A stretch of DNA of 64,000 nt from Marivita sp. S6314 (GTDB lineage: Bacteria > Pseudomonadota > Alphaproteobacteria > Rhodobacterales > Rhodobacteraceae). The stretch covers positions 310,001 to 374,000 of the forward strand of contig NZ_JALKAO010000002.1 of NCBI RefSeq assembly GCF_023015985.1, written 5' to 3'. Within the stretch, counting starts at the first letter, position 1; each line of letters begins with the position of its first letter. Of the stretch, positions 51,260 to 55,825 are shown piece by piece. Under the pieces are notes generated by a model that saw only the letters and a program-made list of their open reading frames with translations, did not search any database and was not told the origin of the DNA. A program made the translations under genes and the position numbers.

Positions 51260-53059
51260 ATGACAGAGCTTTCGCGTATCCGCAATTTTTCCATCGTTGC
51301 CCATATCGACCACGGGAAATCCACCCTGGCCGACCGGCTGATCCAATCCACCAACACGGTGGCGGAACGGGACATGAAAGAGCAGTTGCTCGACAGCATG
51401 GATATCGAGCGTGAACGCGGCATCACGATCAAGGCCAACACGGTGCGGATCGACTATGTTGCGCAGGACGGCGAAACCTATGTGCTGAACCTGATCGACA
51501 CACCCGGACACGTGGATTTCGCCTATGAGGTCAGTCGCTCGATGCGCGCGGTTGAGGGGTCGCTGCTTGTTGTGGACAGCACCCAGGGCGTTGAAGCGCA
51601 GACGCTCGCGAATGTGTATCAGGCCATTGATGCGGATCACGAAATCGTTCCGGTTCTCAACAAGATCGACTTGCCCGCATCCGATTGTGACCGCGTGGCC
51701 GAACAGATCGAGGACGTGATCGGGATTGATGCGACGGATGCGATCCGCGTGTCGGCAAAGACCGGCATCGGCATTCAGGAAACGCTGGAAGCCATTGTGC
51801 AAAAACTGCCCGCACCGACCGGTGAGCGTGACGCGCCATTGAAAGCGATGCTGGTGGATTCGTGGTACGATGCCTATCTCGGCGTGATCGTTCTGGTGCG
51901 CGTCATGGACGGCGTTCTGAAAAAGGGCGAACGCATCAAGATGATGCAGACCGGCGCGGCCTACCATGTGGACCGGATCGGCGTGTTTCGGCCTGCGATG
52001 GCCATGATTGACGAACTGGGTCCGGGCGAGATTGGCTTTCTGACCGCGTCGATCAAACAGGTGCGCGATACAAAAGTCGGCGACACCATCACGCATGAAA
52101 AGAAAGGCGCGGTCACCGCCCTGCCCGGTTTTAAGCCGTCGCAACCGGTGGTGTTTTGTGGCTTGTTCCCGGTCGACAGCGCAGAGTTTGAAGACCTGCG
52201 TGATGCGATCGAGAAGCTGGCGCTCAACGATGCGTCCTTCAGCTACGAAATGGAAACTTCGGCCGCGTTGGGCTTTGGCTTTCGCTGCGGGTTCCTGGGG
52301 CTGTTGCACCTTGAAGTGATCCGCGACCGGATCGAGCGCGAGTACAACATTGAACTGATCACCACCGCGCCCAGCGTGATTTACCACGTCTATATGCGGG
52401 ACGGCGAGAAAATCGAGTTGCACAATCCGGCGGACATGCCCGACCTGTCAAAGGTCGATCACCTTGAGGAACCCCGGATCAAGGCCACGATCCTTGTGCC
52501 GGACGAATACCTCGGGGACGTGCTGAAGCTGTGTCAGGATCGCCGGGGCATCCAGCTTGATCTGACGTATGCCGGGTCACGCGCCATGGTGGTTTATGAC
52601 CTGCCGCTGAACGAGGTGGTGTTTGACTTCTACGACCGTCTGAAATCGGTGACCAAAGGCTATGCGTCTTTTGATTATCAGATGACGGGCTACCGCGAAG
52701 ACACGCTGGTCAAGATGTCGATTTTGGTGAACGAGGAACCGGTCGACGCGCTGTCCACCATGGTTCACCGCGACCGCGCCGAGATGCGCGGTCGGGCGAT
52801 GTGCGAAAAGCTCAAAGACCTGATCCCGCGCCACATGTTCAAGATCCCGATCCAGGCGGCGATTGGCGGCAAGGTGATTGCCCGCGAAACGCTGGCGGCG
52901 TTGCGCAAGGACGTGACGGCCAAATGTTACGGCGGTGACGCGACCCGGAAAAAGAAACTGCTGGAAAAACAGAAGGCCGGGAAGAAGAAGATGCGTCAGT
53001 TCGGCAAGGTCGATATCCCGCAAGAGGCGTTCATTTCAGCACTGAAAATGGACAACTGA
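51260..53059 (+). CDS. lepA: Elongation factor 4 (LepA)
   Basis: 599-aa ribosome-dependent GTPase that back-translocates stalled ribosomes. G1 is [17 protein letters not shown]2 [14 protein letters not shown]3 [13 protein letters not shown]4 NKIDLPASD and G5 SAKTG. Domains II-IV follow, with the LepA-specific C-terminal domain ([40 protein letters not shown]). The ATG at 51260 is preferred; the frame extends to 51194 without support. Single gene. Confidence 0.97.
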
Positions 53060-53114: not shown

Positions 53115-53660
53115 TCACTCCGGGTTTTCAATCGCCTGAAGACAGGCTTGGGCAATGCGCGCGGGCAATGCTCCGGCTATGCGGTCGCGTTCCGATTCGA
53201 GAAAACCGATCCGCCCCTCCTCTGGCCTGTCTTCTGATCCGAAATGCGCGGAAAGCAGTCGGCACGTCGACGGGGCAAGCCATGGCGCGTCTTTCAACGC
53301 GGCCAGCAGGGCCTTGGGGTCTTGCGCATAGGCTGGCAGTAAATCAGCAGCATAGGACTGCATGAGCGACGCATCGACGCTTTGGACCGCATAGTCCCCC
53401 AAGAGCAGCCACACCCGCTGTGCCATCGGGTCCCCTTGCTGTGCCAGATCGCGGTATTTGGTGTAGAGTTCGGCCCGCCCGTGCATCGCGGCAAGCGGTG
53501 TCGCATAGCGGGACGGGTCTTGCCCGATGAGCATCTCTACAAGTTCAAGCGCATCGCCGGCGTCGATGGGCACGGCGTCTTGGGCTTGCGCAGATGGGGC
53601 TGATACAGTCATGCAAACAGCGATGGCGATTGTTGCGTTTTTCAAAGGGGATACGCGCAT
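53115..53660 (-). CDS. Periplasmic protein of unknown function, last gene of cell-wall cassette
   Basis: 181-aa protein with a signal peptide (MRVSPLKNATIAIAVCMTVSAPSAQA). The mature part is all-helical (DAGDALELVEMLIGQDPSRY, AELYTKYRDLAQQGDPMAQR, LLPAYAQDPKALLAALKDAP) and looks like a solenoid with weak SEL1/TPR character and two Cys (STCRLLS, AQACLQA). The ATG at 53660 shares one base with the stop of the L,D-transpeptidase-like gene (TGATG), so they are translationally coupled. A periplasmic partner or immunity role is an inference from position. Confidence 0.7.
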   Translation of the reverse strand: MRVSPLKNATIAIAVCMTVSAPSAQAQDAVPIDAGDALELVEMLIGQDPSRYATPLAAMHGRAELYTKYRDLAQQGDPMAQRVWLLLGDYAVQSVDASLMQSYAADLLPAYAQDPKALLAALKDAPWLAPSTCRLLSAHFGSEDRPEEGRIGFLESERDRIAGALPARIAQACLQAIENPE

Positions 53661-54118
53661 CAGAAGCTCGGCATCCCGCCCCAAAGCGAATGCATGCCGC
53701 GGGTGCAGTCCCAATCCCTAGGGCGGCCGCGACGGACGGTTTCATCTTTGATGACGACACTGATATTGCCGGTTTCCTTGGGCGTGATTTCAGACCACAT
53801 TTCATAGACCTTGGAGCCTGACAGAACGATGCACCCGTCCGACCAGGAGGGTCCTGTTCCCTTGTGGATGAAAAAACCGTTCGCGGTGCTGCCGTCGCCG
53901 TTATACGGCACGCCTTTGCCAAGCCAGATGCCTTCGCGTTTGCCGCCATCGGTGCCATCATCCTTGTTGGCCATCCGCGTCGCGTAACCCGTGTAGGTTC
54001 CCGCGTCGATCACGACGTCCTGATCCCACCAGCATGTTTCAGAAATGTTGACCGTGCCACTTTTGAACGTCAACGTTCCCGTGCCGTTGCTGCGCACAAC
54101 GTTAATTGTATAGCTCAT
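53660..54118 (-). CDS. L,D-transpeptidase-like (YkuD/DUF5675-type) protein, 152 aa
   Basis: A compact beta-rich protein. The key segment GFFIHKGTGPSWSDGCIVLS (residues 81-100) has His85 and Cys96 in the S-D-G-C-I-V-L arrangement of L,D-transpeptidases, which cross-link or cleave peptidoglycan stems. Upstream are TYTGYATRM and EGIWLGKGVPYNGDGS. There is no signal peptide in this reading, so export would need another route. Start ATG 54118; the frame continues to 54193. It sits between a C39-like peptidase and a periplasmic protein. Confidence 0.7.
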   Translation of the reverse strand: MSYTINVVRSNGTGTLTFKSGTVNISETCWWDQDVVIDAGTYTGYATRMANKDDGTDGGKREGIWLGKGVPYNGDGSTANGFFIHKGTGPSWSDGCIVLSGSKVYEMWSEITPKETGNISVVIKDETVRRGRPRDWDCTRGMHSLWGGMPSF

Positions 54119-54226
54119 AATATCATTCCATCTAAAATAGGCTGTCATGATAAGGCGGCGCCCTGCGATCCGGCAATGATTATTCTTGCCCATAGACGCG
54201 GCCTTGGCGCGTACAACGCGTTCGGT

Positions 54227-55324
54227 TTATCCCGGCGACAGCAACAGGAAGCGCACCATGCGGTATGCATCCTGTTTGTTGCGTTGCTTTTCCGAACACT
54301 TGCCAACGGGACTCGCGCGACCGAAAAGCACGCCCGGTTGATACGAGAATTTCTTGTCTCTCATATCGGACAACAGCTTTTCCGTCATGTACTCGTATTC
54401 CCGTGTGTTTTCATGGGTGCACATGTGCATGATTGTACCGCTGGCCGGATCAATCGTTTCGTATTGATAAATCGGGCCGCCGTTCTTGCGGACGATGAGC
54501 ACCCAATGGTCGCCTGCCGAGTCATCGCCTCTGGCACGATCCTTGTAATCGACATGGGCCGCAACCGGATAGCCTTGGGCCAGGTGGGAATCGATCAGCG
54601 CAATGGCGTTGGGGCCGATGCTGTTCTCATACCCGCCGCCGCCATAGCGCTTGACGGTCATTCCAAACAGTCCGGGAACGAGGGACGTGTGCAGACCGGT
54701 CATGGTGTAGCCGCCGTTATCCTTGACGATCTTGTTGGCGATGGAGGGCGTCAGGTCTTTGGCAAGCAGGTTCTTGGGCCAAAAAGGCTGGGGGCGGCCA
54801 ATGCCGGTTGCCGCCATCGTGAGCGTGCACAAGCAGCAGCCGTGCGATGCGATGCTCGCTTTTCTGTCCTCCAGAGTGACCTTCTTGTCTTTGTTCGAAT
54901 CGTATCGGTGACCCAGTTTTTCGGTAAAATGTCCCTGGCAGAACATCTTGAAGGCACCGGCATTTCCCAGCGCGTCCCCGACAGCGGCGCTGACCGAATT
55001 GAGGGCCACCGGAGTGATCCCATCGCTTCCGACCTGTCCGGTGAGCGCCAGCCAAGTCTTGTCGCGTTTCCTGGCCTGGACGAAGCCATCGGCAAAATCT
55101 GCCGTGTAGCCCATGACAATTTGCTGAAAGATCACCAACGCGGATTCCAAGACGCCGATCTCGGGATAGAGACTGTTCCCCCGCGCCAGCCCCGCTTCGT
55201 TGATTTCAAAATTGAAGACGTGATTGCCCATCATGTGACGCTCGATGAGCATCCGTACCTCTTTCACGTCGGCTTCGTTATTGACACCGCCCGGACCAAC
55301 CGAGGCTTTAATTTTCGTACCCAT
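54227..55324 (-). CDS. Papain/C39-like cysteine peptidase with peptidoglycan-binding-like start
   Basis: 365-aa protein. The N-terminus KASVGPGGVNNEADVKEVRM resembles the S-V-G-x-G-G-x-N-x-x-x-D-V-x-x-V opening of secreted peptidoglycan-binding proteins. An EF-hand (DSNKDKKVTLED, about 142-153) precedes the peptidase core: Cys163 in ASHGCCLCTLTMAATG and His273 in GYPVAAHVDY...GDHWVLIV, as in the C39-like family. No signal peptide is seen. The ATG at 55324 is chosen over one at 55393. It is the first gene of a three-gene cassette. Confidence 0.72.
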   Translation of the reverse strand: MGTKIKASVGPGGVNNEADVKEVRMLIERHMMGNHVFNFEINEAGLARGNSLYPEIGVLESALVIFQQIVMGYTADFADGFVQARKRDKTWLALTGQVGSDGITPVALNSVSAAVGDALGNAGAFKMFCQGHFTEKLGHRYDSNKDKKVTLEDRKASIASHGCCLCTLTMAATGIGRPQPFWPKNLLAKDLTPSIANKIVKDNGGYTMTGLHTSLVPGLFGMTVKRYGGGGYENSIGPNAIALIDSHLAQGYPVAAHVDYKDRARGDDSAGDHWVLIVRKNGGPIYQYETIDPASGTIMHMCTHENTREYEYMTEKLLSDMRDKKFSYQPGVLFGRASPVGKCSEKQRNKQDAYRMVRFLLLSPG

Positions 55325-55507: not shown

Positions 55508-55825
55508 ATGGACATGACGCAGCAAAGGAAAATCCTGATGGACCGGCGCGCCGAAATCACCGGCGATCTGCGTGACATCGAAGACAAACTTGACGACCCC
55601 ATGCCCAAGGATTGGGAAGACAGGGCGTCCGAACGGCAGGGCGACGAGGTGCTGGAAGCGCTTGGGAACACCGAACTGGAAGAGCTGCGCCGGATTGATG
55701 CGGCCTTGGCGCGGATCGAGGATGGAAGCTACGGCATTTGTCCGAAATGCGGTGAGGCGATCTCGGACGAGCGACTTGAGGCCGTGCCAGAGGCCGCGCT
55801 GTGCAAGCGCTGCATGGGCAGCTGA
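55508..55825 (+). CDS. DksA/TraR-type zinc-finger protein
   Basis: 105-aa short DksA-like regulator. A coiled-coil N-half (LMDRRAEITGDLRDIEDKL, NTELEELRRIDAALARIED) is followed by the C-terminal zinc finger CPKCGEAISDERLEAVPEAA with the second pair CKRC. Full DksA binds RNA polymerase with ppGpp; shorter forms like this are common in Rhodobacterales and may act independently. GGAG lies 8 nt before the ATG. It is preceded by the cell-wall cassette on the other strand. Confidence 0.9.
   Translation: MDMTQQRKILMDRRAEITGDLRDIEDKLDDPMPKDWEDRASERQGDEVLEALGNTELEELRRIDAALARIEDGSYGICPKCGEAISDERLEAVPEAALCKRCMGS

Follow-up and report, generated by a model that had tools for sequence, protein, structure and literature searches.

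Gene content of the locus

The window analysed here is a 64,000-nucleotide stretch of Marivita sp. S6314 (positions 310001-374000 of contig C22 in a 3.77 Mb genome, coded G000 in our comparisons). It carries three open reading frames (ORFs), all on the minus strand and spanning 55324 to 53115, between genes that we take to be lepA and a TraR/DksA-type zinc-finger gene. Gene 1 (protein P0001) resembles C39 cysteine peptidases, gene 2 (P0002) encodes a small YkuD-like enzyme and gene 3 (P0003) a helical protein with a signal-peptide-like start (Table 1). A sequence-only reading of the same DNA had proposed that these genes form one effector-immunity cassette. We found here that genes 2 and 3 form a pair distinct from gene 1, and that the three genes are not one unit. 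The interpretation that we favour, at a probability of roughly 0.55, is that genes 2 and 3 are a candidate type VI secretion system (T6SS)-type L,D-transpeptidase effector and immunity pair.

The boundaries of the three genes were confirmed, as was the overlap of the gene 3 start with the gene 2 stop, which amounts to 1 nt in the window (TGATG) and to 4 nt (ATGA) in the two Marivita relatives inspected. Genes 1 and 2 are separated by ~108 bases. Gene starts, and gene calls outside Pfam, come from a simple gene caller, which for gene 3 gives an alternative start at 53573 that would remove the leader; we prefer the ATG at 53660 because ten relatives align from it.

Table 1. Features at the locus, in window positions
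Feature	Position	Strand	Basis
Gene 1 (P0001), leaderless C39-like cysteine peptidase, 365 aa	54227..55324	-	weak 9jdd/9jg8 sequence matches; invariant Cys163/His273/Asp292
Gene 1 PG_binding_1-like N-terminal module, residues 1-95	55040..55324	-	alignment; Pfam PG_binding_1 in relatives L080, L081
Gene 1 EF-hand-like loop, residues 142-153	54866..54901	-	in 2/9 family rows
Gene 2 (P0002), leaderless YkuD-like (L,D-transpeptidase/carboxypeptidase) enzyme, 152 aa, candidate effector	53660..54118	-	Pfam, motif
Gene 2 catalytic motif His85-x7-Ser93-Asp-Gly-Cys96	53831..53866	-	invariant 8/8, kept in G264
Gene 3 (P0003), exported all-helical protein, 181 aa, candidate periplasmic immunity protein	53115..53660	-	leader-like start, AF2 model
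Gene 3 signal-peptide-like N-terminus	53580..53660	-	hydrophobicity count and reading alone
lepA (presumed name), flank on gene 3 side	51260..53059	+	gene call
TraR/DksA-type zinc-finger gene (presumed name), flank on other side	55508..55825	+	ORF list

The gene 2-gene 3 pair

Nine of the 25 genomes compared (9/17 Marivita) carry a relative of gene 2, and the same nine carry one of gene 3. The two genes adjoin in every carrier; in G011 it is the 3' half of gene 2 that adjoins the gene 3 relative, the gene being split there over the ends of contigs C47 and C48 (L050, L049), which could reflect an assembly break or an insertion. Among 345 genomes of the family, one per genus, gene 2 was present in two and gene 3 in the same two, namely G000 and G264. 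The latter represents a second genus, and its pair matches that of the window at 60% over 128 aa and 42% over 143 aa; its two genes also overlap, with the start picked by the simple gene caller. The 345-genome searches (for genes 1, 2 and 3 and for the module described below) scored the best first-look candidates per genome, for example ten of 25 in G264, and may miss distant relatives, solitary gene 3 relatives included. Within that scope no gene 3 was found without gene 2, and so the widespread occurrence of the third protein without the enzymes, which the sequence-only reading had named as evidence that would count against it, was not seen. An enzyme gene that co-occurs with and adjoins the gene for an exported partner is the arrangement expected of an effector-immunity pair.

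The YkuD family (PF03734) matches all eight members of the gene 2 alignment (best E 1.2e-4). P0002 itself scores 23.1 bits, fractionally below the Pfam cut-off of 23.4, and its G264 relative 22.0 bits. The residues expected for YkuD catalysis (H85, S93, G95 and C96) are invariant in the eight rows and in G264, and the His85 and S-D-G-C96 picked out beforehand lie exactly where they had been placed. Tlde1_dom (PF10908) gives weak matches in two of the eight members (best E 0.08) and none for P0002 itself. By a simple hydrophobicity count, as opposed to a trained predictor, none of the eight gene 2 rows begins with a leader-like stretch and all ten members of the gene 3 family do. The export asymmetry that had been proposed for the locus thus holds for the pair and is less clean for gene 1, where two of the nine family rows are hydrophobic exceptions: L039, which begins with a moderately hydrophobic stretch, and a G020 copy whose hydrophobic stretch lies within the N-terminal module, at residue 34.

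Two cysteines of the mature gene 3 protein are kept in all ten members, and its AlphaFold2 (AF2) model, with a mean pLDDT (predicted local distance difference test) of 84, is nearly all helix. Pfam offers no family for it. A Foldseek search of this model against the PDB returned no relative that stood out (best E 0.76), and the best VIA score, Z 7.3, falls within the range of common helical arrangements. Two candidate relatives were set aside: 6cp8, a contact-dependent inhibition (CDI) toxin-immunity complex that came up alongside designed repeat proteins (Z 6.2, 70 residues), and Imm57 (PF15596), which matches none of nine P0003 family members and was not found at the pair in the five genomes searched.

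Both genes are under purifying selection and look maintained. Among Marivita, dN/dS is 0.03-0.12 for gene 2 and 0.08-0.25 for gene 3 where dS is finite, values that are rough because dS is often above 1. The conservation of gene 2 between G000 and its relatives (0.81-0.86) is about equal to that of LepA (0.85-0.86), and that of gene 3 (0.49-0.55) is far below both. The lepA gene lies beside the pair in eight of the nine Marivita carriers, the pair of the ninth (G005) being on a contig of 4.8 kb, and the TraR-type gene lies beside gene 2 in all nine. In five Marivita genomes (L042, L046, L047, L048 and L049) a protein of 221-222 aa, leader-bearing by reading, is encoded convergently to gene 3; it is absent beside the pair in G000, G002 and G008.

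The putative gene 1 peptidase and its N-terminal module

Ten copies of gene 1 were found in eight of 41 genomes, one copy being listed in two pieces, and only the G000 copy adjoins the pair. The others lie beside a gene that is presumably dapD in G004, G005, G006 and G013 (with a remnant there in G003); G011 has its copy at a separate site, G020 carries copies in tandem, and a further G006 copy stands alone between lepA and traR. The proposed three-gene cassette is therefore not borne out, and the effector-immunity proposal has to be withdrawn for the peptidase, which occurs alone, has no consistent partner and sits near gene 3 in just that one copy. No immunity gene was recognised beside the dapD-side copies; the gap at the G006 copy between lepA and traR contains ORFs, the longest of 144 aa, that the gene caller skipped. 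Between G005 and G013, gene 1 is 97% identical, gene 2 88% and gene 3 59%, a contrast indicating that the peptidase moves independently of the pair. The truncated remnant in G003 (L041:7784-8239) and the G006 copy next to dapD (L037, G006:C67), which seems to be frame-shifted near its N-terminus, further suggest that relatives of gene 1 turn over. Full-length relatives occur in two of the 345 family genomes (G000 and G020), with partial matches in five more. Gene 1 is probably a separate acquisition and a candidate for T6SS-linked cargo.

The description of gene 1 as a C39-like peptidase with a peptidoglycan-binding-like start and an EF-hand survives in part. Cys163, His273 and Asp292 are invariant in all nine family rows, and the matches to C39-like chains in the PDB are marginal, whether by sequence (9jdd at E 0.014, a second at 0.068; chains 9jdd/9jg8) or by profile (9jdd at E 0.052, a second at 0.35). 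The EF-hand-like loop is present in just two of the nine rows and so is not a family trait. Pfam assigns nothing, PG_binding_1 included, to P0001 or to the other members of its family alignment (A2), and gives clear PG_binding_1 matches in the module-sharing relatives L080 and L081.

A search with the first 95 residues of gene 1 identified the module in 13 of the 345 genomes, a count that keeps a G336 ORF skipped by the gene caller. VipB, our marker for TssC, was matched in 11 of these 13 genomes versus 85 of the 345 overall (p = 6e-6), and in seven of nine once the four query genomes were left out (p = 8e-4). The module is thus associated with the T6SS, as a correlation to which differences in genome size or in overall cell-wall content may contribute. 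The two module genomes without VipB are G059, a true member, and G193, whose match is an enzyme that reads as MltB-like, with a C-terminal domain, and is counted among the 13. The C-terminal parts are diverse: M15 in G361, CHAP in G150 (weak, E 0.013), M23 in G020 (one of its two copies scanned), long regions read as helical in G272, G372, G059 and G260, and sequences of no assigned type in G198, G154 and G238. Module proteins are called leaderless here by reading, and none was seen beside vgrG in the stretches read. In G361 (L080:6242-7878), the gene for a PG_binding_1 and M15_3 peptidase, leaderless in this sense, overlaps a second gene whose leader-bearing product matches nothing in Pfam, which makes these two a candidate second effector-immunity pair. 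In G154 (L101:704-2115), a genome with a T6SS, two leaderless PG_binding_1-type proteins of ~210 aa are encoded side by side.

Possible secretion link and competing explanations

The window genome encodes a T6SS on the same contig as the pair, ~310 kb away. Pfam identifies TssM, TssL, TssK, FHA, VgrG, a ClpV-like ATPase, TssG, TssF, Hcp and TssB there; TssC was recognised by a VipB match and two further components, TssA and TssE, by reading; no TssJ was recognised. Far from this cluster the same genome also encodes a 493-aa protein (G000:C22:790803-792284; L052:10803-12284) whose first part matches VipA and the rest VipB, an apparent orphan TssB-TssC fusion; a weaker second VipB match is likewise present in many other T6SS genomes. 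In G264 the pair lies much closer: ~16 kb separate it from TssC, and nine called ORFs from clpV. By BLAST to the Pfam-named G000 counterparts, the T6SS genes of this region read as vgrG, FHA, tssABC, hcp, tssEFG and clpV. The probability that a random place in G264 falls that near TssC is ~0.8% (0.008). The G264 pair sits beside OmpA-family and caspase-like genes, and similar genes, both of large families, occur in the T6SS region of the window genome. Overall, a T6SS accompanies the pair in seven of ten carriers, that is, six of nine Marivita genomes and G264.

The evidence available at present suggests the following model. The YkuD-like enzyme would be made without a leader, loaded onto the cell's own T6SS and injected into the periplasm of a neighbour, where, like Tlde1, it may trim the stem peptides of peptidoglycan or exchange them wrongly. 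Its helical partner would be exported to the producer's own periplasm and block the enzyme when sister cells fire. Gene 1 may have been inserted next to the pair, at a site prone to insertions, and its product is probably T6SS cargo as well. This model predicts delivery, enzymatic activity and toxicity of the enzyme, and its inhibition by the gene 3 product. The broader proposal that the locus belongs to an effector-immunity set finds support for genes 2 and 3, in their presence in the same genomes, their overlap, their leader asymmetry and the proximity of the G264 pair to a T6SS, and none for gene 1.

Several observations weigh against this model. The linkage in G264 is a single case, with nine called ORFs intervening between clpV and the pair, and in the Marivita stretches read the pair is neither in the T6SS cluster nor beside vgrG. 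The expectation that carriers would also encode a secretion machine holds in the seven genomes listed above, but within Marivita the pair does not follow TssC, which is found in six of nine carriers versus five of eight non-carriers (Fisher p = 1). Three carriers without a TssC match (G004, G005 and G013; 95, 99 and 87% complete), for which absence of the T6SS was scored by the VipB search alone, nonetheless keep the pair intact, with P0002 at dN/dS 0.03-0.05 among themselves. The records of all three are titled as a metagenome-assembled genome (MAG) or an uncultured organism. The same holds for four of the five remaining carriers that have a titled record, and assembly type alone therefore does not explain the missing TssC. 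Matches to gene 1 likewise occur without a VipB match in three of eight genomes. Mutual arms races are often expected of effector-immunity pairs. The gene 2 enzyme, conserved about like LepA, bears no sign of one; a slow enzyme with a fast partner fits immunity but not a mutual arms race. Finally, the structure model of gene 2 was too poor to use or search (pLDDT 41).

The closest precedent is Tlde1/Tldi1 of Salmonella, a published T6SS L,D-transpeptidase effector with its immunity protein (PMC9638812), and the suggestion that the present locus is an undescribed system was on this account too strong. The motif spacing of P0002 (H85, S93, G95, C96) is like that of Tlde1a (H121, S128, G130, C131), and both enzymes are paired with a partner bearing a sec-type signal (PMC9638812). 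However, P0002 has SDGC in place of the (S/T)HGC motif of Tlde1, with Asp at the position of H129, and Ala79 rather than Arg where counting back reaches R115 (PMC9638812). In Marivita, moreover, the pair lies outside the T6SS cluster. Because the His of SHGC is replaced by Asp, we regard gene 2 as Tlde1-like in layout and do not file it as Tlde1. A second parallel is the Tox-LD-peptidase toxin domain with its mostly alpha immunity protein Imm57 (PMC3482391), which shares with our pair the combination of an L,D-peptidase toxin-type enzyme and a mostly alpha partner; Imm57 is listed there from beta and gamma proteobacteria (PMC3482391), and P0003 and its relatives give no PF15596 match. For gene 1, the papain-like interbacterial protease Cpe1 with its immunity protein Cpi1 (PMC12136450) offers a comparable set of Cys-His-Asp protease residues and a T6SS link, but gene 1 differs in its N-terminal module and in having no recognised adjacent immunity gene. 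Its module recalls the N-terminal PG_binding_1 toxin fusions described in vgrG loci, a domain reported to be limited to gammaproteobacteria (PMC10673891). The module proteins share the PG_binding_1-like N-terminus and the T6SS association; they occur in a Rhodobacterales-type family, with none seen beside vgrG in the stretches read. By title and abstract opening, the literature listed shows no effector of this kind from this marine group and no report of these genes from Marivita or Rhodobacterales T6SS work.

The main alternative, which we consider rather unlikely, is that gene 2 encodes an L,D-carboxypeptidase that recycles cell-wall material in the cytosol, as ElsL does in Acinetobacter, in which case the periplasmic protein encoded by gene 3 would be unrelated to it or regulatory. 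ElsL is itself a leaderless, cytosolic YkuD-domain enzyme of cell-wall recycling (PMC8649774), and P0002 is, by description, likewise a small leaderless protein of the YkuD type. This alternative would account for the absent leader and for the slow evolution of P0002, including its retention where no TssC was found. Unlike ElsL, however, P0002 is paired with an exported protein, and its distribution (9/17 Marivita and one other genome of the 345) is narrower than one would expect of a recycling enzyme. Nor would this alternative explain why the gene is strictly paired, and overlaps, with one for an exported protein that evolves fast, or why the G264 pair lies near a T6SS cluster. It is less probable still that the enzyme and immunity protein of genes 2 and 3 form such a pair with delivery by another route, such as release on lysis, a type IV system or some other machine. 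Conservation of the pair in G004, G005 and G013 speaks for this, and the location of the second-genus pair near a T6SS cluster speaks against it, the T6SS being the machine that the searches covered. A further improbable explanation is that the enzymes serve murein maintenance and leave the cytoplasm by a route not yet recognised, the gene 3 product acting as their partner or scaffold. The high conservation of gene 2 would suit such a role, but its eight rows show no leader-like start, its distribution is patchy and the gene 1 family moves on its own. The idea that all three genes form one module, in which gene 3 protects against both enzymes, has in its favour their shared strand and order in the window and is rejected as very improbable, given that nine of ten peptidase copies lie elsewhere or without gene 3 and eight of nine Marivita pairs have no adjacent peptidase. 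A phage or plasmid origin of the genes was also rejected: pattern-based scans of viral contigs found no relative of gene 1 or gene 2, plasmid records held none of the three genes, phage records held neither gene 1 nor gene 2 (the two that were searched), and PHROGs gave nothing for the three proteins up to E 0.1.

Returning to the T6SS model, if it is correct the pair would bring to a marine group an L,D-transpeptidase effector of distinct sequence, whose all-helical immunity protein is without a Pfam match. We also offer, more tentatively, a wider reading that takes in the module. In the roseobacter-type family, the PG_binding_1-like module may mark leaderless T6SS cargo with unlike C-termini (C39, M15, M23, CHAP-like, or long and probably helical), encoded away from vgrG loci and in most cases with no immunity gene recognised next to it. 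Gene 1 would then be an example of such cargo, and genes 2 and 3 would constitute a new family of their own, pairing an L,D-transpeptidase effector with its immunity protein. Cargo without an adjacent immunity gene would point to targets that are not common to the producer. These cases would extend PG_binding_1 toxin fusions to alphaproteobacteria, beyond the limit reported for them (PMC10673891), and the N-terminal module would then be a handle for finding more T6SS cargo in that class.

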